Below, piece after piece: positions 9,224 to 63,489 of a stretch of 64,000 nucleotides of DNA (the first letter of the stretch is position 1; each line of letters starts with the position of its first letter). The DNA is from Rhizomicrobium sp. (GTDB lineage Bacteria; Pseudomonadota; Alphaproteobacteria; Micropepsales; Micropepsaceae): the NCBI GenBank assembly GCA_037200985.1, contig JBBCGJ010000001.1, positions 620,001 to 684,000 on the forward strand, written 5' to 3'. Under the pieces are notes generated by a model that worked only from the letters and a program-made list of their open reading frames with translations, searched no databases and had not been told where the DNA came from. The translations under genes and the position numbers were made by a program.

Positions 9224-9266
9224 GCGCTCCGGGCCACGACTCTCTCTGATTTGGAAGCGAAACGAC

Positions 9267-9300: not shown

Positions 9301-9329
9301 TAAGATGGGTGTTACAGGTAGACCGCACA

Positions 9330-40717: not shown

Positions 40718-40724
40718 GGGCACC

Positions 40725-42169: not shown

Positions 42170-42186
42170 CAAGGAGAAAATTCGTC

Positions 42187-45927: not shown

Positions 45928-45952
45928 CGAAAAACCGACAAGGCTCACGGGC

Positions 45953-47302
45953 GTGAACAATCTCAACGTCATCGACAACTTCATGCAGACGTTCATCCGC
46001 TACATCGACAGCGGATTTGGGCTTCTGCAAGGTGATGTGGCGGCGCTCACGACCGTCCTGATCGGCATCGATATCACGCTCGCGGCTTTATTCTGGGCGA
46101 TGGACGGCGAGGCGAACGTCCTCGCCCGTCTCATCAAAAAGGTTCTCTATGTCGGAAGCTTTGCCTTCATCATCAACAACTTCTCGACGCTCTCGACGAT
46201 CATTTTCAATTCATTCTCAACCCTGGGACTGGACGCGACCAATAGCGGCCTGACGGCGGCCGATCTGTTGCGGCCCGGCAAACTCGCGGGAACGGGGTAT
46301 CAGGCGGCCTATCCGCTTCTTCAGCAAGCTGGCACGCTCATCGGCTTCACCACTTTCTTCAGCAACTTCGTGACCATCGTGGTCCTGCTATTCGCTTGGG
46401 TTGTTGTTATCCTTTCCTTCTTCATCCTCGCCATTCAGCTTTTCATCACGATTCTGGAATTCAAGCTGACGACGCTGGCCGGATTTGTCCTGGTGCCCTT
46501 CGCGCTGTGGAACAAAACGGCGTTTCTCGCCGAGCGCGTCCTCGGCAATGTGGTGTCGTCGGGCATCAAGGTCATGGTGCTGGCCGTCATCGTCGGTATA
46601 GGCACGACGTTCTTCAGCCAGTTCATTTCGGCGCTCCAGGGCCACCCGCCAAGCCTGTCCGATGCCATGTCGCTGGCGCTCGCGTCGTTGTCGTTATTTG
46701 GACTTGGGATCTTCGCTCCCGGCATCGCAACCGGCCTTGTTTCCGGTGCGCCGCAGCTCGGCGCGGGTGCGGTTCTTGGGACAGCCGGAGCGCTCGTTGG
46801 CGGCGCGGCGCTTGCGGGCGCCGGCGCGGCCGGGGCCGGACGCTTGGTCGGAGGCGCCGGCATGAGTGCGGTTCGCGCCGGGACGGCGCTGACATCCGGA
46901 GCCTCGACGGCCAACCAGCTGGCCCAGGCGACGTCCGGCGAAAGCGGCGCTGCCGGTGTTGGTGCCGGATTGGCGGGCGTGGCGCGCGCCGGGGCCGGTG
47001 CTGTCAAAAATGCCGCTCAAGGTATTGGCGAGCGGATGGCATCGGGGTTGAGCGACAGTGCCCAGGCCGGGCGCGATGCCGCCTTCCGGGCCACCGGCGG
47101 CACGCGATCGGGCCAAGCCGCCAACGAGAACAAGGCGGGCGGAGCCCAGTCCGCGACATCGGGCGGAGCGCCCGACTGGGCGCGCCGGCTGCGCAGCGAA
47201 CAGCGCATGCGCGCCCATGCCCATGCCACGACCCAGGCCATCAAAGAGGGCGACCGGCCGGGCGCCGCCGCCACGCCAGACCTCGACCAGCGGGAGAGCT
47301 AG
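45953..47302 (+). CDS. trbL: TrbL, VirB6-like inner-membrane protein
   Basis: A 449-aa polytopic membrane protein; several hydrophobic helices occupy residues about 30-300 (for example IVVLLFAWVVVILSFFIL and VLAVIVGIGTTFF), followed by a long Gly/Ala-rich soluble tail. GTG 45953 is chosen because VNNLNVIDNFMQTF is the usual TrbL start. The next gene begins one base after its stop. Confidence 0.92.
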   Translation: MNNLNVIDNFMQTFIRYIDSGFGLLQGDVAALTTVLIGIDITLAALFWAMDGEANVLARLIKKVLYVGSFAFIINNFSTLSTIIFNSFSTLGLDATNSGLTAADLLRPGKLAGTGYQAAYPLLQQAGTLIGFTTFFSNFVTIVVLLFAWVVVILSFFILAIQLFITILEFKLTTLAGFVLVPFALWNKTAFLAERVLGNVVSSGIKVMVLAVIVGIGTTFFSQFISALQGHPPSLSDAMSLALASLSLFGLGIFAPGIATGLVSGAPQLGAGAVLGTAGALVGGAALAGAGAAGAGRLVGGAGMSAVRAGTALTSGASTANQLAQATSGESGAAGVGAGLAGVARAGAGAVKNAAQGIGERMASGLSDSAQAGRDAAFRATGGTRSGQAANENKAGGAQSATSGGAPDWARRLRSEQRMRAHAHATTQAIKEGDRPGAAATPDLDQRES

Positions 47303-47986
47303 ATGTTCAGACGGACCTTGCAACGCTACGGCCAGACTTCGGAAGCCATCACACCCTATCAGCGCGCCGGCCAAGTGTGGGACGACCGCATCGGCTCGGC
47401 GCGGGTTCAAGCCCGAAACTGGCGGCTCATATCCTTCGGGTCGCTGAGTCTCGCATTCCTGCTGACGGGAGAAATCGTCTGGCAGTCGACGCAGAGCCGC
47501 GTCGTGCCATACGTCGTGCAAGTCGACAAGTTCGGCGCGGTACAGGCCATCGGCCCCGCGGTCCAGAACTATACGCCGACCGATGCGGAGATCGCCTGGT
47601 ATCTGGCGCGCTTTGTGACTGACATTCGGTCGCTCTCGCTCGATCCGGTCATCGTTCGCCACAATTGGTTGGAAGCCTACGACTACGCGACCGATCACGG
47701 CGCCGTATTTCTCAATCAATACGCGCAGACCAACGATCCCTTCAAAGCCGTCGGCCAGCGCACGGTATCCGTGCAGGTCACCAGCGTGGTCCGCGTCTCC
47801 GACAATTCGTTTCAGGTCAAATGGACCGAGCAGACCTTTGAGCACGACACGCTCGCGAAGACGGAGCGCTGGACCGCGATTCTCGCCGTCGTGACCAAGG
47901 AGCCAGCCACGGCCGAGACGCTCAGGAAGAACCCGCTCGGGCTCTACATCAACGGCGTGAACTGGTCGCGCGAACTCGACAGCTAA
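47303..47986 (+). CDS. trbF: TrbF, VirB8-like protein
   Basis: A 227-aa inner-membrane protein with a short cytoplasmic N terminus, one membrane helix (LISFGSLSLAFLLTGEIVWQ) and a periplasmic NTF2-like domain (VVPYVVQVDKFG ... RWTAILAVVTKEP). It is part of the VirB8 bridge between the inner-membrane complex and the core. It is contiguous with trbL. Confidence 0.94.
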   Translation: MFRRTLQRYGQTSEAITPYQRAGQVWDDRIGSARVQARNWRLISFGSLSLAFLLTGEIVWQSTQSRVVPYVVQVDKFGAVQAIGPAVQNYTPTDAEIAWYLARFVTDIRSLSLDPVIVRHNWLEAYDYATDHGAVFLNQYAQTNDPFKAVGQRTVSVQVTSVVRVSDNSFQVKWTEQTFEHDTLAKTERWTAILAVVTKEPATAETLRKNPLGLYINGVNWSRELDS

Positions 47987-48000
47987 CCAAGGAGAATTCC

Positions 48001-49011
48001 ATGAACTATCTCGCCCGAATCGTCGTGTTGCTGCCGCTCTGTGCGATCGCGCTGTCCGGCTGCGCCAGCGCCACCTGGCTGCCCTCGTTTCTGCAGAAAG
48101 ATCCGCCGTTTCAACAGGCCGCAATCGCGCCCGATGCCCCGCCGATCGTCCATACGGTGCAGATCGTGCAGCCGCTTCCGCTGCCCGGTCAACTTCAGCC
48201 GCCGCCGCGCCGCGCCACCCATGTCGCCCGCCCGCCAAAATCCCGCGTCGAGTCCGCAAACCAAGCTGCGCTGCTGGAGCCGACCAGCGAGGGCTACATC
48301 AATGCGATACAAATCTATCCCTATTCCGAGGGCGCACTCTATCGGCTCTATGCCACGCCGCAGGAAGTCAGCGACATCGCCCTGCAACCCGGCGAAAACC
48401 TGACCGCGATTTCGGCCGGCGACACGACACGCTGGGTTGTCGGCGATACGACGAGCGGATCGGGCTCGAACAAGCAGGTCCACATCCTGGCAAAGCCTTT
48501 TGCAGCCAACCTCAGAACCAACCTCGTCATCACGACGGATCGCAGGAGTTATCACCTACAGCTCGAAAGCACGGACCGGACCTACATGGCGGCGATTTCC
48601 TGGACTTATCCGCAAGATGGCCTGGTCACGGAGAGCCGCGGCGGGGGCGCGGTCGCGCCAGCGCGGCCGGCTGACAACATCCCGGCGCTCGACAGTCTGC
48701 ATTTCGACTATGTGATCAGCGGCGACAATCCGCCGTGGAAACCGACGCGCGCCTTCGACGACGGCACGCACGTCTATATCGAATTCCCGACATCGCTCAA
48801 TCAGGGCGATGCGCCGCCGCTGTTTGTTGCCGGACCCGGTGGCAGCAGCAACCTCGTGAACTATCGTGTTCGCGGCAACTATTACATCGTCGATCAACTC
48901 TTCCAGACCGCCGAATTGCGTCTCGGACAGGACCATCAGCAGATCGTCCGTATCAAACGAACGGGCGAGCTGCGCACGGCCGATGCCAACCGCAACCAGC
49001 AGGCCCGGTGA
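48001..49011 (+). CDS. trbG: TrbG, VirB9-like outer-complex lipoprotein
   Basis: A 336-aa periplasmic/outer-membrane core protein. The signal peptide ends in a lipobox-like LSGCAS, followed by a Pro-rich linker and the VirB9 domain (KQVHILAKPFAANLRTNLVI, DRRSYHLQLES, YYIVDQLFQTAELRLG). AAGGAG precedes ATG 48001. The stop is five bases before trbI. Confidence 0.94.
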   Translation: MNYLARIVVLLPLCAIALSGCASATWLPSFLQKDPPFQQAAIAPDAPPIVHTVQIVQPLPLPGQLQPPPRRATHVARPPKSRVESANQAALLEPTSEGYINAIQIYPYSEGALYRLYATPQEVSDIALQPGENLTAISAGDTTRWVVGDTTSGSGSNKQVHILAKPFAANLRTNLVITTDRRSYHLQLESTDRTYMAAISWTYPQDGLVTESRGGGAVAPARPADNIPALDSLHFDYVISGDNPPWKPTRAFDDGTHVYIEFPTSLNQGDAPPLFVAGPGGSSNLVNYRVRGNYYIVDQLFQTAELRLGQDHQQIVRIKRTGELRTADANRNQQAR

Positions 49012-49016
49012 GCACC

Positions 49017-50231
49017 ATGAGCGACGCTGCTATCAATCCGGGTGGTCCGCCGAAACTCGATCCGGAGTCGCTTGTCCTTCGTGGACGACCGAGGCCGGTC
49101 GCCCGCATCAAGCGCCATGTTGTGATCGGAGTCGTCGGCGTCGCGGCCGTCGGCATTTTTGTCGCGACGTGGCTTGCGCTCAAGGCGTCGCCGCTCGCGA
49201 GACCGGCCTCGAACGAAGAACTCTACAACATCGACCGGAAGCCCACGGCGGACGGTCTCGCGGCATTGCCGTCCGGTTACGACAAGATCAAGCCGGCTCT
49301 CGGCCCGCCGCTACCGGGAGACTTAGGACCCGCGGAATTGCGCGCGCGCAACAATCTCGGCGTGCCAGTTGTCGGAGCAGCGGGTGAGAACGATGCCGCC
49401 CGCGCGGAGGAACTGCACCTGGCCCAACTCGCCCGTCAGGCGAACGAGGGCAATGTCTTCTTTCAGGCGGGGGCTGGTCACGCCGGAACAATCGATCCGA
49501 CGACCACAGCGTCGGGCGGTTCCACGCCGACCGCTGACACCACAGTCGCCGGCGATCACGTCGCGCTGGACCCGACGCGCGACCCCGGTGATGTGCAACG
49601 CAAGCTTGACTTCGTCAACGCGCATGATGATCGCAGCGTTTACAATCCGCATGCGATCCAGGATCCGGTGTCGCCCTACGAAGTCATGGCGGGCACGTTG
49701 ATATCGGCCAGCCTGATTACGGGATTGGACTCCGACCTCCCGGGCCTTGTCGTCGCCCAGGTCACACAGAATGTCTATGACACGGTCAGCGGACAAACGC
49801 TCATGATCCCGCAGGGGTCTCGGCTGATCGGCAGCTATGACAGCGTTATCGCCTTCGGCCAAAGCCGCGCGCTTGTCGTGTGGCAGCGGATCATCATGCC
49901 GGACGGCTCGTCTATCCAGATCGACAATCTGCCCGCGACCGACGCGCAAGGCTATTCAGGTCTCGAGGATGATGTCGATTACCACACCTGGGCCCTCATC
50001 AAGGGCGTGGCGATCTCGACCTTGCTCGGCGTCGGCACCGAACTGTCGCTGAGCGGCCAAAGCGACCTTCTGCTTTCGATCCGCGAGTCGACGCAGGACA
50101 GCGTCAACCAGGCCGGCCAACAGATTACGCAAAAGAATCTGAACATCCAGCCCACGATCAAGGTGCGGCCGGGCTGGCCTCTGCGCGTCGTCGTTCACAA
50201 GGACCTGGTGCTGCGGCCATACCGCAGCTGA
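49017..50231 (+). CDS. trbI: TrbI, VirB10-like protein
   Basis: A 404-aa protein that spans inner membrane and periplasm and joins the outer-membrane core. One membrane helix (HVVIGVVGVAAVGIFVATW) is near the N terminus and the conserved domain follows (YEVMAGTLISASLITGLDSD, GSRLIGSYDS, PGWPLRVVVHKDLVLRPY). Last of the trbBCDEJLFGI block; DUF2274 follows. Confidence 0.95.
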   Translation: MSDAAINPGGPPKLDPESLVLRGRPRPVARIKRHVVIGVVGVAAVGIFVATWLALKASPLARPASNEELYNIDRKPTADGLAALPSGYDKIKPALGPPLPGDLGPAELRARNNLGVPVVGAAGENDAARAEELHLAQLARQANEGNVFFQAGAGHAGTIDPTTTASGGSTPTADTTVAGDHVALDPTRDPGDVQRKLDFVNAHDDRSVYNPHAIQDPVSPYEVMAGTLISASLITGLDSDLPGLVVAQVTQNVYDTVSGQTLMIPQGSRLIGSYDSVIAFGQSRALVVWQRIIMPDGSSIQIDNLPATDAQGYSGLEDDVDYHTWALIKGVAISTLLGVGTELSLSGQSDLLLSIRESTQDSVNQAGQQITQKNLNIQPTIKVRPGWPLRVVVHKDLVLRPYRS

Positions 50232-51293: not shown

Positions 51294-52679
51294 GTGGCAA
51301 AACGAATCCCGGACGAAGATCTGCTGGCGATCGAGTCGGTCCTGCGGCGCCATCCGGGCGGTGCGTCAGCCCAGCAAATCCAGGCCGAACTCAGCCCTCA
51401 AACGCCCCAGCGAACCCTGCAATACCGGCTCCGGTATCTGACCACTCATGGCCGCGTAGTGCGGGACGGCGACGGCCGCTGGGCCAAATATCACCTGCCG
51501 GTAGCCGCGCCGAACGCCGCTGATCCGACGGACCGAGACGATGCGATCATAACGGTCTCGGAGGCCGGCAGGGATATACGGGACTATATGCGCCCGCCGC
51601 CGGAGGCACGCAAACCAGCCGGCTACAATCGCCACTTTCTCGATGCCTATCGCCCGAACGTCACCGCCTATCTGTCGGCGGCAGAACGCGCGCATCTGGC
51701 ACAGGTGGGAGGCGCGGATGTCCGTGAGCAACCAGCCGGCACCTACGCCAAACATATTCTGAATCGGCTTCTGATCGATCTGGCGTGGAATTCGAGCCGG
51801 CTCGAAGGCAACACCTATTCGCTGCTCGATACCAAACGCCTCATCGAACTGGGAGAGGAAGCACAGGGGCGCGAGCATCTCGAAGCCCAGATGATCCTGA
51901 ACCACAAGGATGCGATCGAATTCCTGGTCGGCAGCGCCGAGGAGATCGGCTTCAATCGCTATACGATGCTCAATCTCCATGCGCTGCTGGCGAATAATCT
52001 GCTGGCGGACCCAGCAGCGGCGGGCAGGCTTCGGCACATCGCGGTCGGCATCGAACGATCCGCATTCCATCCGCTCGAGGTGCCGCAGCTGATCGCCGAA
52101 TGTTTCGATCAGATTCTCGCCACGGCGGCCGCGATCAAAGATCCGTTCGAGCAGGCGTTCTTCGTCATGGTGCAGCTTCCCTATCTTCAACCCTTCGACG
52201 ACGTGAACAAACGCGTGTCGCGCCTCGCGGCCAATATTCCGCTGATCAAAGGCAACCTCTCACCGCTGTCTTTTGTCGACGTTCCCCGGGCGACCTACAC
52301 CGAGGCGGTGCTCGGCGTGTACGAGTTGAACAAGGTCGATCTTCTGAAAGATGTGTTCGTATGGGCCTATGAGCGCTCGGCAGCGCGCTACGCCGCGGTC
52401 CGCCAATCGCTGGGGGAACCTGATCCCTTTCTGCTGCGTCATCGCACTCATTTGCGCGAAGTCATCGGCGAGATCATCCGCAGCCGCATGAACAGAAAAG
52501 ATGCTGTCGCCCATATCGCTGCCTGGTCCAGGAACAAGATCGCTCCCGCGGACCGGTCGCGCTTCACCGAGGCGGCGGAGAGGGAATTGACGAGCCTGCA
52601 CGAGGGAAATTTTGCGCGGTATCAGATTCGGCCGTCCGAGTTCGCCGCATGGCAGGAGATTTGGGGAGGAGCGCGATGA
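51294..52679 (+). CDS. Fic family protein with N-terminal winged helix
   Basis: A 461-aa protein. Residues about 1-65 look like a winged helix (LLAIESVLRRHPGGASAQQI, LQYRLRYLTTHGRVVRDG). An inhibitory-type helix SSRLEGN (Glu171) precedes the Fic core, whose motif is LQPFDDVNKRVSR (Gln299): the catalytic His of HPFx(D/E)GN(G/K)R is Gln. I recall the PFDDVNKR form as a known Fic subgroup, so AMP transfer is doubtful and a regulatory role is possible. GTG 51294 follows the repeat array. ATGA overlap with the next gene indicates an operon with the Gabija-like pair. Confidence 0.85.
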   Translation: MAKRIPDEDLLAIESVLRRHPGGASAQQIQAELSPQTPQRTLQYRLRYLTTHGRVVRDGDGRWAKYHLPVAAPNAADPTDRDDAIITVSEAGRDIRDYMRPPPEARKPAGYNRHFLDAYRPNVTAYLSAAERAHLAQVGGADVREQPAGTYAKHILNRLLIDLAWNSSRLEGNTYSLLDTKRLIELGEEAQGREHLEAQMILNHKDAIEFLVGSAEEIGFNRYTMLNLHALLANNLLADPAAAGRLRHIAVGIERSAFHPLEVPQLIAECFDQILATAAAIKDPFEQAFFVMVQLPYLQPFDDVNKRVSRLAANIPLIKGNLSPLSFVDVPRATYTEAVLGVYELNKVDLLKDVFVWAYERSAARYAAVRQSLGEPDPFLLRHRTHLREVIGEIIRSRMNRKDAVAHIAAWSRNKIAPADRSRFTEAAERELTSLHEGNFARYQIRPSEFAAWQEIWGGAR

Positions 52680-54439
52680 GCGCACCTGGATCACCAGCTT
52701 CGGCGCCTGCGATCTATCGCTTCTCGATCGAGCGCTTTCGAGGAATCAAATCGCTCGTCTGGCAGCCGGCAAAGGGTGTCAACGTCATTCTTGGCGGCGG
52801 CGACGTTGGCAAGACGACCATCCTGGACGCAATCGGCCTGCTGCTCAGCCCCGTCAACCCGGCTAATCTTGCCGATACCGACTATCACGCGCGCGACATC
52901 GCGGCGGGCTTTTTGATCGAGGCGGTCATCTCTCTGCCGCCAGGCAGCGGCATCAGCGATCAGTTCAAGCCGTCTTGGCCGTGGGAGTGGAATGGTACGG
53001 ACGTCTCGGTTCCGAGCACCGACGACGACGGCAACCCTCCCGGCGATCCGGTATATCGCGTGCGCGTGCGGGGCACCGAGGATCTGGAGCTCATTTACGA
53101 GATCGTGCAACCCGATGGCTCGACCGACGGCTTCCCGGTTGGGTTGCGCCGTTCGATCGGGCTGGTGCGACTGAGTGGCGATGACCGAAACGACCGTGAC
53201 TTGCGGCTCGTGCAAGGCTCGGCACTCGACCGGCTGCTCTCCGACAAAGGCCTGCGTTCGCGCATGGCGAGCGAGTTGGCTAAAAGCGATGTGAAGAGTG
53301 AACTGACGGATGGCGCGAAGAAGGCGCTCGAAGATCTCGACGCGGCCTTCAAGGCCAAGAGCCTACCGGCCGGACTCGATCTCGCCATCACTGGCGGGCA
53401 GGGTCCCTCCATTGCATCGTTAGTCGGCCTGACAGCAGACCGCGACGGCACGCCTCTGCCGCTCGCAAGCTGGGGCGCAGGAACGCGTCGGCTCTCCGCT
53501 CTCGCGATTGCCGAACAGAACCAGGGCGAGGCACCGATCACGATCGTTGACGAAGTCGAACGTGGGCTCGAGCCTTATCGCCAGCGAACGCTCATGGACA
53601 AGCTGCAGGCCGCCAAGTCGCAGGTATTCGTCACAACGCACAGCCCGGCAGCAATCTCAGCCGTGTCCGAGGCGGGCGTTTGGTATGTCGATCCTGCAGG
53701 TAGGATCGGGGCGCTCGATGCCCTCAAGATTGCGCGACATCGCAAAGTCGATCCCGAGACGTTTCTGGCGCGTTTTGCGGTTGTCGCCGAAGGCGCGACG
53801 GAAGCCGGCCTGACCGCATCTTTGCTGGAGCGGGCGCTGGGCGCGGCGCTGGAACAACACGGCGTGCATGTCACGGATGGCGGCGGGCACGAAAACACGT
53901 TGGGCCTGCTCGAAGCGCTGGCCGCGGGCGGGCTTCGCTTTGGTGGGTTCGTCGACGACGAAGCCAAGCATCCGGAGCGCTGGGCGAAGCTCGCCGCGAA
54001 GCTCGACAAGCTGCTCTTCCGTTGGCCTTCGCTTTGCACCGAAAACAATGTGATCGCGACCATACCGGACGACAAATTGGAAGCACTGATCATCGATCCG
54101 AAGAACGAGAAGACCGGCATGCGTTGCCGGACACTGTCCGAGCGTCTGGGCATCGCGGACAAGGATTTCGCGGCGCTCAAGGCAAAAGCGGGAGACGGCT
54201 TCCGGGCGCTCATCATCGAGGCCGCACGGGGCTCGGTGCCGCCCGGCAAGGAAAGCGAGAATAAACAGTACAAGGCGCATGCCGGGACATGGTTCAAATC
54301 GATGGAGGGTGGGCGCGAACTCGCAGGCAAAATTTTCAGCCTCGGCGCCTGGCCGGTCTTGAAGCCGCAACTGCTGCCGTTCTGCAACGCAGTCCGGAAG
54401 GCGATCGACCTGCCGGACGTCGCGGACTTGCCGCCTTGA
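52676..54439 (+). CDS. GajA-like OLD family ATPase with TOPRIM nuclease domain
   Basis: A 587-aa protein. The N-terminal ATPase has Walker A GGGDVGKTT (40-48), signature SWGAGTRRL and Walker B TIVDEVERGLEP (Asp292/Glu293), then FVTTHSPAA. The C-terminal TOPRIM has Glu372 in VVAEGATEAG and the acidic pair Asp427/Asp428 in FGGFVDDEAKH. Size and layout match GajA of Gabija, a nucleotide-sensing DNA nickase active against phage. ATG 52676 overlaps the Fic stop; its own stop overlaps the helicase start. Confidence 0.88.
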   Translation: MSAPGSPASAPAIYRFSIERFRGIKSLVWQPAKGVNVILGGGDVGKTTILDAIGLLLSPVNPANLADTDYHARDIAAGFLIEAVISLPPGSGISDQFKPSWPWEWNGTDVSVPSTDDDGNPPGDPVYRVRVRGTEDLELIYEIVQPDGSTDGFPVGLRRSIGLVRLSGDDRNDRDLRLVQGSALDRLLSDKGLRSRMASELAKSDVKSELTDGAKKALEDLDAAFKAKSLPAGLDLAITGGQGPSIASLVGLTADRDGTPLPLASWGAGTRRLSALAIAEQNQGEAPITIVDEVERGLEPYRQRTLMDKLQAAKSQVFVTTHSPAAISAVSEAGVWYVDPAGRIGALDALKIARHRKVDPETFLARFAVVAEGATEAGLTASLLERALGAALEQHGVHVTDGGGHENTLGLLEALAAGGLRFGGFVDDEAKHPERWAKLAAKLDKLLFRWPSLCTENNVIATIPDDKLEALIIDPKNEKTGMRCRTLSERLGIADKDFAALKAKAGDGFRALIIEAARGSVPPGKESENKQYKAHAGTWFKSMEGGRELAGKIFSLGAWPVLKPQLLPFCNAVRKAIDLPDVADLPP

Positions 54440-55953
54440 GCGACGAGACCGTCCGCGCAGCGCTGCGATCCGACGTTCCGCTCGTTCTGGTCGAGGCGCC
54501 GGCCGGCTGTGGCAAGACGCACCAGGGCGCTGATTATGCGCACGAGGTTGCACCGTCCGTCCTAGGCCGGCTCCTCATTCTGACCCACACGCATGCCGCC
54601 TGTTCGGTCTTCGCCGAACGAACGCGAATCGGCCAATCGCGCGTCGAGATTCGCACGATCGACAGCCTTATCGCGCAGATTGCGACAGCTTATCATGTCG
54701 GGCTTGGTCTACCCGCCGATGCCACAGCCTGGGCGCGGCGAAATACGGACGGCTATGCGCAGGTTGCTCTGAAAGTGGCGAGTCTATTGGCGCGGCGCCC
54801 AATGATCGCGGCGTCCCTAGCTAAGCGTTATCCGGTCGTGATTTGCGACGAGCATCAAGACTGCAGCGGCGACCAGCACGCCCTGGGCATGGCGCTGCTG
54901 GCACACGGATCGCGGCTTCGCGTGTTCGCCGATCCGATGCAACGCATTTACAAGGAGAAAGCGCTCGCCGGTTCCAGCCCTGGCTGCGACTGGGCTGCCC
55001 TCACAAAGAAAGCGCAGGCCTATGAGCAGCTCGATACACCACACCGCTGGGAGACGGGTTGCCCGGAGCTCGGAAAATGGACCTTGCAGGCGCGCGCCGC
55101 ACTAATGTCCGGCGGAAAAGTTGATCTCCGCAATGGATTGCCGCCGAGCGTCAGCGTGGTATTTGCCGAGAATCAGGCGCAAAGAAATCTGGAATATCAT
55201 CTCGCAACCGCAGATCGGAAGCCGATCGATGCGTTCGAGAAAGCGCAGACCTCGCTCCTTGTGTTGACCCATCACAACGACACGGCGCGCTCGTTTCGCG
55301 GGTTCTTCAACCGGCGCCTTCCCCTTTGGGAAGGTCATACGCGCGCCGCCTTGGAGGGGCTGGTGGACGCTGTCGGTGCTCAGCACGGCGATGCGCCGAT
55401 GCTCGCTGCTGCGGTCGTTACGTTCATGAACGACGTTGGCAAAGGATTCAGTCCGTCTGCCTTTGGCGATCGACTCGAGAAGGAAGTTCGTGACGGCTGC
55501 ACGGCCCGAAGCAGGGGCAAGCCCGCGATCATCCAGGAGCTTGGCCGGTGCCTGCTTGCCGATCCCGATCATCGGGGTGTCGCCAACATGCTTCGCCGCC
55601 TTGCGGAACTGAAACAGTCGAATGGAGACTTCGCGGACATCGAAATGGACTGTCACAAAGAGTTCTGGGATGCGGTCCGGCTGGGCGCGTTCGACAGTAT
55701 CGACGAAGGGCTGACCGAGATCACGCATCGCCGTACCTATTCAAGGCCAAAGCCGCCGGATAAGGCGATCAGTACGATCCACAAGGCCAAGGGACTTGAA
55801 TGCGGCAGCGTCATTATTATGCCTTGCGATGCCAAGACGTTTCCCGAACGGCCGGACGCGCGCTGTCTTCTGTATGTTGCGCTCAGCCGCGCCAAGAGCC
55901 GTCTCTTGCTTGTCGTGTCGCGCAACGCTCCGAGCCCGCTCCTAGCAATTTAG
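54436..55953 (+). CDS. GajB-like UvrD/PcrA family helicase
   Basis: A 505-aa superfamily 1 helicase-like protein starting at TTG 54436 (TTGA overlap with the GajA-like gene). Walker A is EAPAGCGKTHQG (20-31), Walker B VVICDEHQDCSG (near 138), FADPMQRIY is motif III-like, STIHKAKGLECGSVII motif V and LYVALSRAKSRLLLV motif VI. Length matches GajB (about 500 aa), which associates with GajA and is activated by DNA ends. The coupling of all three genes suggests fixed stoichiometry with the Fic protein. Confidence 0.88.
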   Translation: MSDETVRAALRSDVPLVLVEAPAGCGKTHQGADYAHEVAPSVLGRLLILTHTHAACSVFAERTRIGQSRVEIRTIDSLIAQIATAYHVGLGLPADATAWARRNTDGYAQVALKVASLLARRPMIAASLAKRYPVVICDEHQDCSGDQHALGMALLAHGSRLRVFADPMQRIYKEKALAGSSPGCDWAALTKKAQAYEQLDTPHRWETGCPELGKWTLQARAALMSGGKVDLRNGLPPSVSVVFAENQAQRNLEYHLATADRKPIDAFEKAQTSLLVLTHHNDTARSFRGFFNRRLPLWEGHTRAALEGLVDAVGAQHGDAPMLAAAVVTFMNDVGKGFSPSAFGDRLEKEVRDGCTARSRGKPAIIQELGRCLLADPDHRGVANMLRRLAELKQSNGDFADIEMDCHKEFWDAVRLGAFDSIDEGLTEITHRRTYSRPKPPDKAISTIHKAKGLECGSVIIMPCDAKTFPERPDARCLLYVALSRAKSRLLLVVSRNAPSPLLAI

Positions 55954-56032
55954 GCGGCAATGCCAAGGACTTGGCGCGCGTCCCCGTATACAAAATCTGC
56001 GAGAATGCCGGACGCCGATCGATCGTCGCTGC

Positions 56033-56224
56033 TCAGCTGAGGTTCGAAAGATTTTGCCGGCCCCAGTCATGGGAATGCAGTTGTTCGCCGCCGAGCAGAT
56101 GTAGGTTCAGATGATAGATGGTCTGCGCGCTATCGGAACTGGTGTTGATCAACGGCAGGAAGCCGAACCGGTCAGTATGCTTCTGGCGCGCGAGCTTCAC
56201 CGCCAATCCAGCCATCTCAGCCAC
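56033..56224 (-). pseudogene. Truncated HIT family protein remnant
   Basis: The 63-residue frame contains FLPLINTSSDSAQTIYHLNL and HLLGGEQLHSHDWG, the C-terminal end of a HIT (histidine triad) nucleotide hydrolase, where QTxxHxHxHLLGG is conserved. The N-terminal two thirds are missing and the triad reads HLNLHLL, with Asn at the nucleophilic His position. Both facts indicate a dead fragment, probably of an old chromosomal gene disrupted by island insertion. Confidence 0.6.
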
Positions 56225-56311
56225 GACTGCCGCTGCCCGCAGAAACGGGGGTATCGTCCAGAGTTGGCATTTCGGGTTTGGCTGGACCCGCGGTGCTGGC
56301 AGCGTTTGTGC

Positions 56312-56327
56312 CGATAACTTGGAATTA
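56312..56327 (+). promoter_or_regulatory. Shared start-site motif, copy at the 947-aa gene
   Basis: CGATAACTTGGAATTA, followed by three bases and ATGG. The same 16 bases with the same spacing precede the glycosyltransferase gene on the other strand (59836-59851). GATAAC could be a -10 element for a leaderless or very short 5' leader. Confidence 0.6.
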
Positions 56328-56330
56328 TGT

Positions 56331-59174
56331 ATGGCGAGACTACTCCTAACCGGAGACGCGCCGCTTGATCGAAATATTTTTTATGACCCTTCGGAAACTG
56401 TTGGGGCGCTCCTTGCAGCCGTTATTGCCTTCTTTCGCGGCGAAGGTACAGCTCATCTTCTGTTGAGCGCCGGGGAAGGATTGAATTCAAGACAAATTCT
56501 CTTGAAGGCTCTTCAGTTGGCGCCTTCATTGCTCGGCTTCGATTTACGCACTTTTTGGGTAAGCGCGGCGCGCGGAGATCGGCAGGACGATGTTTTGAAG
56601 CAAGTCTACCGGCACCTTTCGAAAACGTGGCTCGAATATCTGCCAATCCGAAGCCTCAGCCCGGATATCAATTTTCTTGAAGAAGCGACCGAACCTGGCC
56701 GCCACGTCGATCGCATCCATTCGATCCTATCGCGACTTTCGTCTAGCAATCTCGTATTTGTCGCCGATCTAACTAAGTGGCGCTCGGATCAGGAGACTAC
56801 ACGCGATTATCGCGAAACGCTTGAACGGATCGCATCGCGCACACTCGTTAGAAATTGCTTATTCATAACAATTGTTCACCAGGCACAATCGCGGCAGGCT
56901 AAGGGTAGATCGGGCATTATCGAGATCCCCGAAGTCGAAGCCCGGTTTGAAAAAAGTCTGAACAAACTCCTGAGAGCGCGTCGTCGGGGAAACGGCGAAT
57001 TGAGGAGTCTCCCATCTCAGCGTGTGCAGTACGAACGCATATTGGCGCCATGGTACGCATATGGCCGACCGATCGCAGGATCACGCTCCGAATTTCTTAC
57101 GGAGCAGATACCCGCGACGGCAGATACCATAAAGCTATTGCTCCAAGAAGATCTGATCTATCCCTTGATAGCGGACGGCTATTCTCTGACGGTCGACGGG
57201 CTTCAAGCCGCGTCGCACGATCTTAAAGCGGCGCGCCAACAGGCCAGCCAATTAGCCGACATAGCGCCAAACGTATTGCGAATTATGGACTTCATGCCGC
57301 CCGAAAGGTTATCCGAAGTGCGATCTGATGTTCAGCGACTTCTCAGCAATGACCCAACGCCGTCCACACTGTTGAGGATGATTGCTGCCGTCATGGCGCC
57401 TGAATCTGGTGCCGCGGAATGGCAAAGCCGCCTGCTCGAATACCTGTCGGCGCCAAAAACACTCCGACAGGATTCGGAGCTGGTAAGAAACGGTTCATAC
57501 TCGCGCATCGCCATAAATTATCTCGGCCAGGCTCTTCTGGCGAATGCTCATAAGCTCGACACCGCCCATTTTCACGCATTCGAGACAATTTCTTATCTTT
57601 ATGCCGATTCGATCGTCAACAAGACGGATGTTCACCCGAGCGATATCCTTGAAGCCTCTGGCTGGGTATACAATATTGGGTACGTGTATGACCGGGCGCA
57701 CGCGCTCGAACGCAAGACATCGATTTCCGCTCGGAAAAAGCTGCAAAGCGATGCGGCGGCTCTGTACGCGCTGACCAGAATCTACGATGCACCTCTAGGC
57801 ATGCGGTTGGAGGTTGGTTTTCTAAAAGGTCTGTATCAGTACAACATCGGGGCATTTTCCGAGTCCTCCGATACATTTTTGCTTGCGTTGCGCGAGTCGC
57901 TCGAAAACGGTTCCACAACGATAGATTCTGCAGACGATTTCGATTTATCGGCAGGGGAATTAGCGCCTTCGCTGTTTACCAACGCACTGCGATCCGCTGA
58001 ATCATGCCCGCCCGCAAAACGCGCGCAAATCTTCTTGTATCTGCGCCAACTTGACAGGCATTTCGTCCATCGCTTCGGATTTTCGATATTCAACGATGTT
58101 GTTAACTCTACGGACAATGGCGGAAAAGCCTCCTTCCGTTCCGAGCTATGGAATTTCTCGGCCAGCAGCAAACCGGACCTGGGAATCGTAAGTCACACGG
58201 CAGCGTCTGGGGACACCGCCTATTTGGGTTCTTTGATATTTCGCGAACTTAATCTCTCGGTTCGCTGCTTCTCGCCGGATTCGTTGGATGCGTTACGAAA
58301 AGTAGATAGCGATGCGCGGTATCCGTTATTGGTTTCGGGAGGTCCGGAATCTCGCTTCGGATTGGGGGATTTTATCACTGAAATGGATCCTTCAATTAAA
58401 TCTCTTTTCCAATTTATCAGCAGCGGTCCCGTCGGAATTCCAATTGAAATAGCGACGAGAAGGCCCTCTCGCACTGTATTAGCAACTTGGTCGCTCGGCG
58501 ACAGTGTTCGCGCAACTCGCCGTTGGATTCGCAACGCAAAGGAGACACGCATGTTAGATGGCACGATCGTTCAGCAACTGCTCGACAATCCGATTGTTAG
58601 TTCAATAACGTCAAAGGTGGGCGTCAAGATCATCGACCGCTTGGTCGACGCGGCAGTTTCAGCGATCTCGAAGCGCATGACCAAAATTGGTGCGGATGTC
58701 GAGAACGACATGGCCGCGTTGAAGGCACGTATCGAGCCCGTTTTTACTGCCAAGCGAAATCAGTCGATGTCTGGCGCTTCCCCTCAGCGTGTAGCCGAAG
58801 AGGCGCTGTCGAAAGTCAGCACATTGGAGCAGCGCGCGTTGCTAGAAACCTTGAGCGGAACGCAATGGATCGTCGTTCTCGAAGACGCCCTTGACCAGCT
58901 GAGAGCTTCGAGCGTTTCTTTGGCCGAACTTCAGTCGATTCTCGAACTTCTACTCGGCGTCGCCACAAGTGCCATGGTCGAAGGATTTCGCGATGAGCGA
59001 CGCCGACAAAAGTTGATCGGCTTTCAATCGGCGTTTCGAGAGTTCATCTTCGAAACGGACAATATGTCCATTCGCGAACAGGCACGATCTGTCCGTAACA
59101 ACGAATTGGTTTCCGATCTAATGACCCGTGTCTTCACGAGCTCAACGGCATTTTTGAGTTTTCTTCGCGAGTAG
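56331..59174 (+). CDS. Uncharacterised 947-aa protein with degenerate NTPase-like N terminus
   Basis: I do not recognise the family. Residues about 20-260 have the strand-helix rhythm of a P-loop NTPase (HLLLSAGEGLNSRQILLKAL, SSNLVFVADLTKW, RNCLFITIVHQA), but no Walker lysine is visible. Residues about 360-660 are helical and repeat-like. A further alpha/beta region includes ARYPLLVSGGPESRFGLGDF, then a helical C terminus. ATG 56331 is fixed by the shared start-site motif. The gene has lower GC than the transfer region and overlaps the convergent glycosyltransferase gene by 41 bases. A STAND-like sensor is one possibility. Confidence 0.7.
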   Translation: MARLLLTGDAPLDRNIFYDPSETVGALLAAVIAFFRGEGTAHLLLSAGEGLNSRQILLKALQLAPSLLGFDLRTFWVSAARGDRQDDVLKQVYRHLSKTWLEYLPIRSLSPDINFLEEATEPGRHVDRIHSILSRLSSSNLVFVADLTKWRSDQETTRDYRETLERIASRTLVRNCLFITIVHQAQSRQAKGRSGIIEIPEVEARFEKSLNKLLRARRRGNGELRSLPSQRVQYERILAPWYAYGRPIAGSRSEFLTEQIPATADTIKLLLQEDLIYPLIADGYSLTVDGLQAASHDLKAARQQASQLADIAPNVLRIMDFMPPERLSEVRSDVQRLLSNDPTPSTLLRMIAAVMAPESGAAEWQSRLLEYLSAPKTLRQDSELVRNGSYSRIAINYLGQALLANAHKLDTAHFHAFETISYLYADSIVNKTDVHPSDILEASGWVYNIGYVYDRAHALERKTSISARKKLQSDAAALYALTRIYDAPLGMRLEVGFLKGLYQYNIGAFSESSDTFLLALRESLENGSTTIDSADDFDLSAGELAPSLFTNALRSAESCPPAKRAQIFLYLRQLDRHFVHRFGFSIFNDVVNSTDNGGKASFRSELWNFSASSKPDLGIVSHTAASGDTAYLGSLIFRELNLSVRCFSPDSLDALRKVDSDARYPLLVSGGPESRFGLGDFITEMDPSIKSLFQFISSGPVGIPIEIATRRPSRTVLATWSLGDSVRATRRWIRNAKETRMLDGTIVQQLLDNPIVSSITSKVGVKIIDRLVDAAVSAISKRMTKIGADVENDMAALKARIEPVFTAKRNQSMSGASPQRVAEEALSKVSTLEQRALLETLSGTQWIVVLEDALDQLRASSVSLAELQSILELLLGVATSAMVEGFRDERRRQKLIGFQSAFREFIFETDNMSIREQARSVRNNELVSDLMTRVFTSSTAFLSFLRE

Positions 59175-59832
59175 CAAGCCCTGCGGCATCAAGCAGAAGA
59201 TCGATCGTGTCGGCTGCCATTTTCAGATACTGTGAATGCGGTCGCAGGTAATCGACGACAGGCTCGATTTCATGCACCCTGATATCATAACCTTTGGCCA
59301 GCGCATTGATGTGAACTGCTGTATCAAAACCCCATCCGTCGCCAAACTTATTGAAGTCGATACCAGACTTGTCGACCAGATACATTCCCGAATTTAGTAG
59401 AGCGACATGCTTTAGTCCGTGAAAATAGCGGTCGACGAACGGCTTGATCACGAAATAAGTCATCGCCCAGTACTGTTGATCGTGCGGCCATTGCCCTGAG
59501 ACCAGCGACGCCTCTCGCTCGCGCGTATTCCAAAAGTCTTCAATCCAATGAGATTGGGTATTCAGAATATCGGCGTCAATTTTGAAAACCCATTTTGTCT
59601 CTGCTGCGGAAAAGCCGGCTTTCAAGGTCGCTCCGAAACCTGGCACCGAGCAATTGACAACCCGTGCGCCAGCCTTTGTCGCAAGAAGCGCAGTGTCGTC
59701 CGTGGAAGCATTGTTAGACACGATGACTTCGCGGACGAGCTTTGATTTCATGCATTCATGCACAACTTTCGATATCGTTCCGGACTCATTTCTGGCGGGA
59801 ATGACCACCGTGATCGGCGCCGTACTGACCAT
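59134..59832 (-). CDS. Glycosyltransferase family 2
   Basis: A 232-aa GT-A fold enzyme. TVVIPARNESGTISKVV, VREVIVSNNASTDDT and the metal-binding WVFKIDADIL are classical GT2 motifs. The C-terminal part GYDIRVHEIEPVVDYLRPHS carries the acceptor side. No membrane anchor is seen. ATG 59832 is preferred to TTG 59844 because the start-site motif shared with the 947-aa gene has the same 3-base spacing here. Donor and acceptor are unknown. Confidence 0.85.
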   Translation of the reverse strand: MVSTAPITVVIPARNESGTISKVVHECMKSKLVREVIVSNNASTDDTALLATKAGARVVNCSVPGFGATLKAGFSAAETKWVFKIDADILNTQSHWIEDFWNTREREASLVSGQWPHDQQYWAMTYFVIKPFVDRYFHGLKHVALLNSGMYLVDKSGIDFNKFGDGWGFDTAVHINALAKGYDIRVHEIEPVVDYLRPHSQYLKMAADTIDLLLDAAGLATREENSKMPLSS

Positions 59833-59835
59833 CGG

Positions 59836-59851
59836 TAATTCCAAGTTATCG
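59836..59851 (-). promoter_or_regulatory. Shared start-site motif, copy at the glycosyltransferase gene
   Basis: On the minus strand CGATAACTTGGAATTA, then CCG and ATGG. Identical over 16 bases to the copy at 56312 and with the same distance to the start codon. Confidence 0.6.
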
Positions 59852-59899
59852 CTAGAAGCCCCGTGCTAAAGATAACCCAAGGTTGTCGGCAAGTACAGA

Positions 59900-60793
59900 T
59901 CAGACCAGGGCGCGCATAACGTCCGCCCGTTCTAGGGCGCTCCGGAGGGCGGCGTCGCTGACGTGCGTGTATATTTGAGTCGTAGCAATGCTTGCGTGGC
60001 CGAGAAGGCGTTGAACAAACCGAATGTCGACTCCGCCCTCAAGCAGCAGAGTCGCGGCGGTGTGACGTAACATGTGCGGTGTTACTCGGCCGAGGCGCCC
60101 GCGGCGGGCCACTGAATGGAGCCTAAGGCGAAGACATTGCGGCGTGAGCTGCCGACCTCTGCGGTTTCGAAATAGGGGGGCTGTCGCTCGGTCAGGTTCG
60201 GGCAGGGTCCGAATGTGCGATGCCATCACCTTGCGGACACGACTGTTTGCGATGATGACGATCCGCTCGCGGGCGCCCTTGCCGTAGACGCTAATTTCAC
60301 CGGTGTCCGGTCGTATGTCTCTTACCCGCAAGGAACAAAGCTCGGACACGCGGAGTCCCGTTGCTGCCATTAGTGCCAGACACAGGTGCGTCGTGTCTTC
60401 GCCCGGCACTAGGTCGGATTGATGCGCGCGAGCGTTATCGAGCAATACGCGCAGTTCGTGGCGGGGAATTGCCTTCGGAAGCCTCGTCGGCATCCGAATT
60501 TTCAATTTCCACGCGCCAAATGCTTCCAGCGCAAGTGCTTCATCAGTTGCGTGAAAGAAGGCGCGAACCGATGCAAATTTGCGTTTGATCGTTGCCGGAG
60601 AATACTTTGGATCCTCCGCAATCCTGATCACGCAGTTCCGCACCGAGGTAGCCGACGGCATCTCTCCGCGTGGCATCAATGCGTCAAACTGGTGGAGGTC
60701 GTTCTCGTAAGCGTCGAGTGTATGAGACGAAAGCCTACGAACCGACCGACATCGTTCCAAATAACTATCAATCTGACTACGCAACGCACCCAT
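59900..60793 (-). CDS. Tyrosine recombinase/integrase (XerC/D-like)
   Basis: A 297-aa site-specific recombinase. The N-terminal SAM-like DNA-binding domain covers residues about 1-90. The catalytic set is complete: Arg148 (TGLRVSEL), Lys172 (GKGARE), His240-x2-Arg243 (HMLRHTAAT), His266 (LLGHASI) and Tyr275 (TQIYTHV). It lies inside the group of genes sharing the CGATAACT motif but does not carry the motif itself. It may mobilise this island or the conjugative element; no att sites were found. Confidence 0.92.
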   Translation of the reverse strand: MGALRSQIDSYLERCRSVRRLSSHTLDAYENDLHQFDALMPRGEMPSATSVRNCVIRIAEDPKYSPATIKRKFASVRAFFHATDEALALEAFGAWKLKIRMPTRLPKAIPRHELRVLLDNARAHQSDLVPGEDTTHLCLALMAATGLRVSELCSLRVRDIRPDTGEISVYGKGARERIVIIANSRVRKVMASHIRTLPEPDRATAPLFRNRRGRQLTPQCLRLRLHSVARRGRLGRVTPHMLRHTAATLLLEGGVDIRFVQRLLGHASIATTQIYTHVSDAALRSALERADVMRALV

Positions 60794-60876
60794 CTAAACC
60801 CCCAGCTTTCAAGGAGAGGGGTATCAGCAGCACTTTAATTTGAGGTTCCTAGCCAACCCTGAGGGGCACGATCTAA

Positions 60877-60899
60877 CGATAACTGTCAATTATGGAGAG
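60877..60899 (+). promoter_or_regulatory. 23-bp inverted repeat, left copy, over the GNAT-like gene start
   Basis: CGATAACTGTCAATT followed directly by ATGGAGAG. The complete 23 bases recur exactly, inverted, at 62613-62635 over the start of the methyltransferase gene. GATAAC lies where a -10 box of a leaderless transcript would be. Confidence 0.7.
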
Positions 60900-61983
60900 C
60901 TTTAGGTCCGTTCACGAGTTGCGTATGTTTGACCGCACTGCATCGGGACGGCGCGATCTGAATGCGGCGCTAGCCATTTTCGCACGCAACACTTCGCCCC
61001 TCATCCGCACGCAGATAAATCAGATTCAAGAGAAATTCGAGACGCCGGAGAGTGCGACGGGCCGCTTTTACTACGCCGGCTTCTATGCCAATGACTGCAT
61101 CGTCGGCTTCAATATGTTCGCATACTATCCGCGATCGCGCGTAATCATCGTGGATCACATGGCGCTTGAGCCGGAGCATCGCCGACATGGCTCTTTTTAC
61201 ATTTTCGCATCTCTACTTCAGCAATGGATTTTGACGAATATCCCTGACGTCTCATACGTGGTGACCGAGGTCGGCGTCGATCCGGCATTCGATCACGGGG
61301 ACATAACAGGGTCGCTTCTGGTCCGCCTGCTGCGCCAAGTTGGCTTTGGGCGCGTACATGTGAAGTACTATCTTCCGAACAACGAGCCGAAGATCTATCA
61401 GAAGAAATTCGAGGCGGCACTGATGTTGCGCGGGCTGAACCGTGTTCCTCAGGTCCGGGCCGAAGACCTGATAGATATTGTAAAGGTCATTCTATTTGAA
61501 CATGACCTAACTTGGTACCAGGACTACTTCGGCGATTTTCTGCCGCGCTATAAAGCCCATCTCTCAGAAATCCTGGCTGACATTCAGCGCCAGGTGGAGC
61601 ACGAGCCGACGATCGAGGTGAACGGAGACGCTTATGATGAACTGGGCGGCCCGGCACCAATCGCGAAGTCCGTTCTAGGCCTTCCGTTTTCGGCTTTAGG
61701 TCATTCCGTCCTCTTTGTCGTGATGCTCGCGGCTGTGACCCTCGCATCGTGGTTTCTTGGCCTTGGCCAAGGCGTCATGGCGTTCACCTTGATCGTGGTA
61801 CTGGCATATGCAGGACTAGCCGCCTTGTCCGAAGCCCGCGCACTGAACGTCTTCGACAGGCTGGGTAAAGTGACGATCGATCTGGTCGAACGCCTCAAGC
61901 CGACTTCCGGCAAAAAAAGAATCCATTATCGGCAAACTCGCCGATCCCTGGTATCAAAGTCAAAGGACGATCCAGCCAGCTAA
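60892..61983 (+). CDS. GNAT-like acetyltransferase domain protein with C-terminal membrane segments
   Basis: A 363-aa protein. Residues about 55-190 resemble a GNAT fold: VIIVDHMALEPEHRRHGSFY is the acetyl-CoA-binding beta4-alpha3 region, although the usual Q/RxxGxG/A loop is replaced by EHRRHGS. Residues about 265-315 contain two hydrophobic helices (VLFVVMLAAVTLASWFLG, MAFTLIVVLAYAGLAA). The start ATG 60892 lies inside the inverted repeat. The 3' end overlaps the convergent methyltransferase gene by 89 bases. Substrate unknown. Confidence 0.7.
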   Translation: MESFRSVHELRMFDRTASGRRDLNAALAIFARNTSPLIRTQINQIQEKFETPESATGRFYYAGFYANDCIVGFNMFAYYPRSRVIIVDHMALEPEHRRHGSFYIFASLLQQWILTNIPDVSYVVTEVGVDPAFDHGDITGSLLVRLLRQVGFGRVHVKYYLPNNEPKIYQKKFEAALMLRGLNRVPQVRAEDLIDIVKVILFEHDLTWYQDYFGDFLPRYKAHLSEILADIQRQVEHEPTIEVNGDAYDELGGPAPIAKSVLGLPFSALGHSVLFVVMLAAVTLASWFLGLGQGVMAFTLIVVLAYAGLAALSEARALNVFDRLGKVTIDLVERLKPTSGKKRIHYRQTRRSLVSKSKDDPAS

Positions 61984-62620
61984 ACTTTGCTGAGAAATTC
62001 GAGTTCCTTGTGATTTTGTACGCCAGGGCGGATGCGATGTGGGAGTAGTCGGATGCCACAATCTCGAATCCAGCCGCCTTAAGAGTCCGCAAAACATTCT
62101 TGCGGCTATACATCCAGAGTTGTTCGTCGCCCTTGTAGAAGGTGCTTACGAATGCCGCATCGGACCGGTACTTCGGGCTGAACAACAGCTCGAATGTATT
62201 GGAGAGCTCCACATGCAACAACATCGGAGCGCCGTGGGCCGCCACGCGCGCCATCTCAATTACCAGTTCGACAAGCGAGCAATAGCTTGCTACCGCACCA
62301 ACACAGATTACGGCGTCGGCGCATCCGTCGGCGAGCGGCAATTTGTGCGCATCTGCGCACACGGCCAAAGGCTGTCCGACCAAGCGATCGAAGGCGAAAT
62401 CGACTTGGATATATCTCGAACACGAAACATTCTGGCGAATTCCACCAGATCCTATGTCGATGACGACATCGGGATTGTTTAGCAGCGCCGAAAATCTTTC
62501 GATGGCGCGTTTGACGCGCGTGAGCATATACGCATGCCACCGATCTTCGTCCGAATAGATGTCGGCGACCGCATTGTATTTCGCCTGTACGCGAGCCGAG
62601 TAGTCGGCCGGTCTCTCCAT
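61895..62620 (-). CDS. Class I SAM-dependent methyltransferase
   Basis: A 241-aa protein with motif I VVIDIGSGG (near residue 55), then YIQVDFAFDRL, an acidic LAVCADAHKLPLADGCADAV typical of methyltransferase 11 enzymes, and ICVGAVASY. The C terminus TLIPGIGEFADNGFFF appears genuine although it overlaps the convergent gene. ATG 62620 lies inside the right copy of the inverted repeat. Target (small molecule, lipid or sugar) is unknown. Confidence 0.82.
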   Translation of the reverse strand: MERPADYSARVQAKYNAVADIYSDEDRWHAYMLTRVKRAIERFSALLNNPDVVIDIGSGGIRQNVSCSRYIQVDFAFDRLVGQPLAVCADAHKLPLADGCADAVICVGAVASYCSLVELVIEMARVAAHGAPMLLHVELSNTFELLFSPKYRSDAAFVSTFYKGDEQLWMYSRKNVLRTLKAAGFEIVASDYSHIASALAYKITRNSNFSAKFSWLDRPLTLIPGIGEFADNGFFFCRKSA

Positions 62621-62635
62621 AATTGACAGTTATCG
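62613..62635 (-). promoter_or_regulatory. 23-bp inverted repeat, right copy, over the methyltransferase start
   Basis: Exact inverted copy of 60877-60899. With the left copy it encloses the convergent GNAT-like/methyltransferase pair in a 1759-base unit. Confidence 0.7.
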
Positions 62636-62856
62636 GTAATTTGCCCCGACACAACTATACCTTGCATCCGTGCGCGCTGCTAGTATTCGTTTGGCCCGAT
62701 TTGCCAAATGACTAAGAAGCTAGCGCGCATCACCTTGGCGCCGTGTTGGAAGGCTTGCTAGGTCCACTGGTCCGCAATCTAGTTCTGAGCCTCTCCGCCG
62801 AACAGGCAGACTGTAGGTTACAGCCGAGGTGACGCTGAGTGGTACGAGACGCGGGC

Positions 62857-63489
62857 ATGGCTATTTCTGCACACGACTATCTGGCGATTGCCAGGGAGGC
62901 ACAACGTCAGGACACGCGCACCGTGATCGCGTACCTTGATCAGATTTTGCCATTCCTATGGCAGGCGGACTACGAGGCACAGGCACCGGCCACGTCAAAC
63001 CTACTAACGATCACGTTTGGCGGCCGCCGTCCAGGTGAGCCTTTCTGTCGCTATTTGTTTGATCAAGCGAGTGCCAGTTCGGGTACATCCCTTGTCGAGG
63101 ATCGGGTGGTTGCAGCGTGGGGGATCAGCAGGCATGTGCCGGCCGCGAGTCGGAACCGCTCTCGGATGCACGGTTTTCTGCGGAGCGTTTGGTCAACGGT
63201 CTACCCGGGCGCGGACCGCGGGCATTTTCTGGCCCACACCCTCGGCGGCGGGCTCGATATCAACCTGTTCCCGCAATCCAAAAGGGTGAATCGCTCCGGT
63301 CTATGGCGGCAGATGGAAACTTACTGCAGCCGGAATCCAGGGACCTTCTACTTTGTCCGGCCGCTCTACCAGAACGGCAGCTGGATTCCATCCGAGCTGG
63401 AGTTCGGTATCTTCAAGACTGTAAGCCCAGATCCCTCGGAGTATTGGGGTCATGTGTTTGTGAATGATATGCTATCTGACAAGGCGTGA
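62857..63489 (+). CDS. DNA/RNA non-specific endonuclease-like protein (beta-beta-alpha-metal)
   Basis: A 210-aa protein. RGHFLAHTLGGGLDINLFPQ, then KRVNRSGLWRQME, matches the DRGH ... N ... motif of Endonuclease_NS-type nucleases, with the general-base His, the metal-binding Asn and the downstream LWRQMET helix. The N-terminal about 100 residues are unassigned. No signal peptide is seen. ATG 62857 is chosen; GTG 62839 is possible. No immunity gene is evident next to it, so a defence or DNA-processing role is as likely as a secreted toxin. Confidence 0.65.
   Translation: MAISAHDYLAIAREAQRQDTRTVIAYLDQILPFLWQADYEAQAPATSNLLTITFGGRRPGEPFCRYLFDQASASSGTSLVEDRVVAAWGISRHVPAASRNRSRMHGFLRSVWSTVYPGADRGHFLAHTLGGGLDINLFPQSKRVNRSGLWRQMETYCSRNPGTFYFVRPLYQNGSWIPSELEFGIFKTVSPDPSEYWGHVFVNDMLSDKA

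Follow-up and report, generated by a model that had tools for sequence, protein, structure and literature searches.

Among the closest described counterparts of the locus treated here are the G segment of phage Mu and the C segment of phage P1. In both, an invertible segment of about 3 kb is bounded by inverted sites and carries alternative gene sets in opposite orientation, the gene of the recombinase (Gin and Cin, respectively) adjoins one end of the segment, and only the set lying beside an external promoter is expressed. Gin and Cin are serine recombinases that work with an enhancer, and their cargo consists of tail-fibre genes only. In Moraxella, where the recombinase Piv likewise adjoins the invertible region, a single fixed 5' end is followed by one or the other of two alternative coding sequences. 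Here, we analyse a locus within a window of 64,000 nucleotides (nt) from Rhizomicrobium sp. (positions 620,001 to 684,000 of contig JBBCGJ010000001.1), in which the gene of a tyrosine recombinase lies between two modules, each of them a convergent gene pair enclosed by one pair of inverted sites. As in the Mu and P1 systems, inverted sites surround alternative genes, with the recombinase gene at one end; unlike in Gin and Cin, the enzyme is a tyrosine recombinase, the genes within a module are unrelated, and the cargo varies between loci. The type of enzyme and the unrelated genes also set this system apart from Moraxella Piv, a DEDD recombinase whose genes are homologous pilins.

Tyrosine recombinases are known from comparable switches, such as the inversion of hsdS by PsrA/CreX in pneumococci (PMC4948785, PMC7096588) and the RecV switches of C. 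difficile (PMC5903667). With these, the present system has in common the short inverted repeats, the tyrosine recombinase, and mixed orientations in a clonal population. However, PsrA/CreX and RecV act on gene segments or on elements carrying the promoters of resident genes, whereas here whole, unrelated, and exchangeable gene pairs would be flipped by a dedicated recombinase clade present in many phyla. The dif (pdif) modules of Acinetobacter, which have Xer-type sites at their borders and are reshuffled among replicons (PMC13141974, PMC12907356), show a similar core geometry and module exchange as well. Contrary to these modules, which depend on the host XerCD, each locus of the kind described here encodes a recombinase of its own, its sites have a 7-bp spacer specific to the pair, and its convergent genes start at these sites. 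In the open-access literature, we found such related inversion and dif-module systems and no description of the present one, which is weak evidence for novelty; the proposed gene-pair switch is widespread in bacteria and apparently undescribed.

We propose, with a probability of roughly 0.87, that the conserved motif copies at this locus are the crossover sites of the neighbouring tyrosine recombinase, and that recombination within a pair flips the two-gene module, so that either of its genes can adjoin the recombinase gene. Most likely, this would be a reversible inversion switch that sets one of two genes beside the recombinase transcription unit, and an exchangeable cassette in addition.

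Two inverted site pairs around a tyrosine recombinase gene

The sites, modules, and genes of the locus are the following (aa, amino acids; SAM, S-adenosylmethionine):

56312..56328, plus strand: site 1a, distal, CGATAA-CTTGGAA-TTAT
59835..59851, minus strand: site 1b, adjoining the 3' end of the recombinase gene, CGATAA-CTTGGAA-TTAC
60877..60893, plus strand: site 2a, adjoining the 5' end of the recombinase gene, CGATAA-CTGTCAA-TTAT
62619..62635, minus strand: site 2b, distal, CGATAA-CTGTCAA-TTAT
56312..59851, no strand: module 1, putative invertible segment of 3.54 kb, inverted pair with a private spacer; inversion predicted from relatives
56331..59174, plus strand: 947-aa protein of no known family, distal gene of module 1 in the present orientation
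59134..59832, minus strand: GT2 glycosyltransferase of module 1 (Glycos_transf_2, 1.8e-15), adjoining and codirectional with the recombinase gene
59900..60793, minus strand: XerC/D-like tyrosine recombinase of 297 aa (Pfam Phage_integrase, 9e-36), proposed to act on all four sites
60877..62635, no strand: module 2, putative invertible segment of 1.76 kb, inverted pair with a private spacer
60892..61983, plus strand: GNAT-like protein with a C-terminal hydrophobic stretch (from an alignment with relatives), module 2, adjoining the recombinase gene
61895..62620, minus strand: SAM methyltransferase (Methyltransf_11, 1.9e-06, and an alignment with relatives), distal gene of module 2

A preliminary description of this DNA had reported one motif in four copies, each at the start of a gene, and had argued that their conservation could not be due to chance and that the four genes form one system. 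All four copies were found in place, with matches of CGATAACTTGGAATTA at 56312-56327 (+) and 59836-59851 (-), and of CGATAACTGTCAATTATGG at 60877-60895 (+) and 62617-62635 (-). Shuffled sequence yields, at 3 mismatches or fewer, a mean of 0.11 matches for the former and 0 for the latter, which excludes chance, and the view of the four gene starts as one system holds as well. That first reading had missed, however, the arrangement of the copies as two inverted pairs facing inwards, 56312(+)/59851(-) and 60877(+)/62635(-), with pair-specific centres, and the fact that the intervening gene encodes a tyrosine recombinase. Read from outside to inside, each site consists of ATAA, 7 bases, and TTAT or TTAC, the spacer being CTTGGAA in pair 1 and CTGTCAA in pair 2 (centres TGG vs GTC).

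The fixed distance to the four start codons, also claimed previously, is real but takes two values: the ATG lies 19 nt past the C of CGATAA in the 947-aa and GT2 genes, and 15 nt past it in the GNAT-like and methyltransferase genes. We relate this constancy to the coding sequences beginning at the crossover site. Judging from the pattern of the four genes, 56331 is the probable start of the 947-aa gene, whose frame is open further upstream, through site 1a to an ATG at 56118.

The same distance had been taken as the mark of a common promoter type or regulator, that is, of a promoter, leaderless start signal, or operator common to four separately transcribed genes, and GATAACT does show a weak likeness to a -10 element, 8-14 nt before the ATG. 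This explanation is nevertheless very unlikely. The core CGATAACTNNNAATTA, with 1 mismatch at most, has exactly 4 matches in the 4.64-Mb genome, all of them at this locus, so that the genome-wide search once suggested for further members of the motif returns none and no other gene bears a copy. No sigma-70-like promoter was found in positions 56000-63000 of the window, a scan for promoters and terminators counted no more sites than in shuffled sequence, and neither a conserved -35 element nor a Shine-Dalgarno sequence was found upstream of 28 proximal and 28 distal copies from the window and its relatives. The sites act instead like inverted-repeat recombination sites: they are always inverted, adjoin a tyrosine recombinase gene, have centres identical within each pair and different between pairs, and, in relatives, are the breakpoints of an inversion and of assemblies. 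They may additionally aid transcription or leaderless translation.

Inversion and module replacement in relatives

The layout of the window was surveyed in 80 relatives of the recombinase plus further loci, and it recurs as inverted pairs in at least six phyla (Pseudomonadota, Actinomycetota, Acidobacteriota, Bacteroidota, Bacillota, and Campylobacterota), with single sites in additional phyla within the recombinase clade. Among the 29 inverted pairs tabulated, which have 11 different centres, the spacer is identical within the pair in 29/29, against at most 15/29 in 100,000 permutations. As the first listing of pairs demanded matching centres, the count was checked against a site listing made without that demand, in which no adjacent inward pair with differing centres was seen. 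Locus L298 has one more such pair, in which the core is written the other way round. Within a module, the genes run towards each other, each beginning at its site, and the ATG mostly lies 14 bases past the G of GATAACT. A pattern scan of viral contigs with GATAACTNNNAATTATGG gave one match per stretch among the matches listed, and the E. coli genomes hold no DNA similar to the Aliarcobacter locus described next.

Two plasmids of Aliarcobacter cryaerophilus, NZ_CP032824.1 and NZ_MK715471.1, are colinear in their flanks (99.90% identical on the recombinase side and 99.88% on the far side), and the module of 3458 bp between these flanks, 99.91% identical, is inverted from one plasmid to the other. 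The breakpoints of this inversion are 17-bp sites, AATAATAGGATATTATA, of the form ATAA-N7-TTAT. The modules differ at three positions only, one of which is a single-base deletion that splits the gene of a nucleoside triphosphatase (NTPase) in NZ_MK715471.1. In this plasmid (locus L315, 1940-4407), the split gene is distal to the recombinase gene, and in NZ_CP032824.1 the intact gene adjoins it.

Inversion at such sites is thus shown in relatives, and draft assemblies add to it. Twelve of the 56 contig ends of recombinase loci in these assemblies fall 8 bases or fewer from a site, where about 0.04 would be expected. The module forms its own contig, with both sites within a few bases of the ends, in G393, G398, G399, G401, and G402, and in these same assemblies two flanks end at the same site. 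In Patulibacter sp. NTP18, the module contig bears the recombinase-side flank at both of its ends, and the start of one of its genes is found joined to the far flank as well; therefore, both junctions, and with them both orientations, coexist in one sequenced sample. Since the asymmetric spacers are inverted, inversion is also the expected intramolecular product. Integration or excision of a circle at the sites was considered and rejected, as the asymmetric spacer is inverted, and never direct, in all tabulated pairs. As a separate observation, the break in two Rhodopseudomonas assemblies (L025 and L038) lies inside the 3' end of the recombinase gene, with a complete module on the other side, which suggests a further rearranging end.

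Whole modules are also replaced by other gene pairs between the same sites. Plasmids of Streptococcus salivarius and S. equinus, whose recombinase regions are at least 90% identical and whose flanks are the same, differ in what lies between the same sites, where three gene pairs occur: GNAT/methyltransferase, polyprenyl synthetase/unknown, and serine hydroxymethyltransferase-like (SHMT-like)/tetratricopeptide repeat (TPR) NTPase. Between S. salivarius ICDC2 and NU10, the flanks are 99.6% identical, homology ends at the sites, and the gene pairs differ. In the same way, A. faecis has a GNAT/methyltransferase pair at the position of the ATP-grasp/NTPase pair of A. cryaerophilus. These replacements would be explained by recombination at both sites, that is, by cassette exchange.

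They also raise the question of whether the sites serve chiefly for horizontal movement, like dif modules or integron cassettes exchanged by double crossover, with inversion as a by-product and both genes expressed either way. Cargo that differs where the flanks are nearly identical, the breakpoints being at the sites, the same cargo pair in distant phyla, and the AGG centre common to 10/29 pairs fit this explanation, but the convergent coding sequences starting at the crossover give a layout that makes expression dependent on orientation, and the mixed populations in the draft genomes indicate frequent inversion, so that we regard it as unlikely, yet worth bearing in mind. The least probable account, and hardly a credible one, takes the inverted repeats for the termini of a transposon or integrative element mobilised by the recombinase: a recombinase next to inverted ends and a patchy distribution would suit it, whereas the recombinase gene lies outside the repeats in all pairs tabulated, each pair has centres of its own, and different modules occur within the same flanks, the site staying while the cargo changes.

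According to the inversion switch that we favour, ATAA-N7-TTAT would be the core crossover site of the recombinase, which would pair two spacer-matched sites and thereby invert the module. The different centres, TGG and GTC, would stop the two window modules from recombining with each other and keep both independent. In the present state of the window, the GT2 gene adjoins the recombinase gene codirectionally and the GNAT gene adjoins it on the divergent side; inversion would bring the 947-aa gene and the methyltransferase gene beside it instead. As the coding sequences begin at the crossover, a promoter outside the module could serve either gene, and the gene adjoining the recombinase would be the one mainly expressed, as in an either/or switch. 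In Streptococcus, a Shine-Dalgarno-like sequence lies inside the repeat. The inverted core sites with identical overlap and the adjoining recombinase gene expected of an inversion system are present in the window, and both orientations with breakpoints at the sites are found in relatives only, from which the inversion of this strain's modules is predicted.

Several points weigh against this reading. As the window genome consists of one finished contig, no heterogeneity is visible in it, and the same module has been found in both orientations in one strain pair only. The action of the neighbouring recombinase on these sites is a prediction, and expression from the distal end may be possible. 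Besides, orientation is biased: in a tally by hand of 21 enzyme/NTPase modules, which includes module 1 of the window and counts the two Aliarcobacter plasmids apart, the enzyme gene adjoins the recombinase gene in 13/15 modules lying 3' of it, and the NTPase gene does so in 5/6 modules lying 5' of it. Inversion may therefore be rare or selected.

The recombinase clade and its reach

The recombinase matches PF00589 (9e-36) and has the invariant residues R148, K172, H240, R243, and H266, the catalytic R-K-H-R-H that places it in the tyrosine recombinase superfamily. Its best solved structural relatives are XerA, a XerC-like protein, and XerD. It was rejected as XerC or XerD proper, scoring 201.7 bits for TIGR02224 (cut-off 335.15) and 186.4 bits for TIGR02225 (cut-off 329.6) and belonging to a separate clade, and as an integron integrase, with 101.1 bits for TIGR02249 (cut-off 265) and sites that are inverted pairs and not a direct array.

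In a maximum-likelihood tree, from which two control rows with aberrantly long branches (L086 and L240) were ignored, the site-bearing recombinases form one clade apart from XerC/D, with a Shimodaira-Hasegawa-like approximate likelihood-ratio test (SH-aLRT) support of 100, and 50/55 members of this clade have at least one site. A gap in bit score separates the clade from XerC/D (at least 270 vs at most 223) across 385 alphaproteobacterial genomes, of which 11 have a recombinase of the clade. The clade is present in 5/398 genomes of a phylum-wide draw, and in 3/399 genomes of one order, picked because a member was known there; overall, the distribution is patchy.

At some loci, single near-palindromic sites adjoin the recombinase gene and have no partner in the locus (L021 at 10941, L014 at 1814, L015 at 4909, and L047 at 8634), possibly representing an empty state of the system. 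Locus L043, from Sphingomonas caeni, has two modules with different spacers (8173-9857 and 17858-19530) and one detectable recombinase of this kind within its 20.8 kb, as in the window.

With odds somewhat better than even, we further propose that these loci constitute a class of self-contained binary gene switches that spans phyla and has exchangeable cargo, run by a dedicated tyrosine-recombinase clade and with modules swappable between loci, in which one gene or the other is expressed, as a hybrid between a phase-variation and a cassette system. The modules would typically oppose a biosynthetic or surface-modifying enzyme to a STAND-type NTPase, and the presumed physiological role of the switch would perhaps be bet-hedging in defence or surface chemistry. 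The rule of an ATAA-N7-TTAT inverted pair, convergent genes, and an adjoining recombinase recognises candidate invertible gene pairs in many phyla, among them those on finished plasmids of Streptococcus salivarius and Aliarcobacter, both culturable. Should expression depend on orientation, a clade whose sole annotation is "tyrosine-type recombinase/integrase" would control the alternative expression of enzymes and STAND NTPases, the latter being a family with many immune sensors. Moreover, inverted sites with matching spacers would represent recombinase-mediated cassette exchange in a natural form, and would supply orthogonal recombinase/site pairs.

Cargo and neighbouring genes

According to Pfam, the cargo enzymes encompass ATP-grasp ligases, SHMT-like proteins, GT2 and GT4 glycosyltransferases (two of which match "GT4-conflict"), aminotransferases, carbamoyl-, sulfo-, methyl-, and phosphatidyltransferases, and a tRNA-editing domain. 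Opposite to them lie either AAA_16/STAND-type NTPases, some of which have an N-terminal Mrr-nuclease, SIR2, or esterase-like domain, or else proteins that match nothing in Pfam.

The gene pair of module 2 is also found in Streptococcus, Aliarcobacter, other Alphaproteobacteria, and Granulicella, and one relative of its GNAT-like protein scores above the cut-off for Acetyltransf_1. For the 947-aa protein of module 1, no relatives were found in plasmids or in other genomes of the class, and hhalign gave no match to an alignment of STAND NTPases. A single-sequence AlphaFold model of this protein is unusable, with a predicted local distance difference test (pLDDT) value of 37, and the visual impression of a degenerate P-loop was not borne out.

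Directly to the left of module 1, at 52649-55953, lies a Gabija-like pair of an OLD-type ATPase and a UvrD-like helicase, whose best PADLOC models are GajA (1.6e-71) and GajB (1.4e-57), respectively. These neighbours fit a defence neighbourhood, without proving a role in defence. Just outside site 1a, at 56040-56270 (-), inspection by eye revealed a remnant resembling the C-terminal part of a HIT-family protein, possibly a gene disrupted on the arrival of the module. Also by eye, a large SIR2-like protein (19332-22223) and an AAA protein whose C-terminal part resembles a methyltransferase (36676-38529) were noticed near apparent conjugative-transfer genes (about 38600-50200), and these two could be further defence cargo of an integrated conjugative element.

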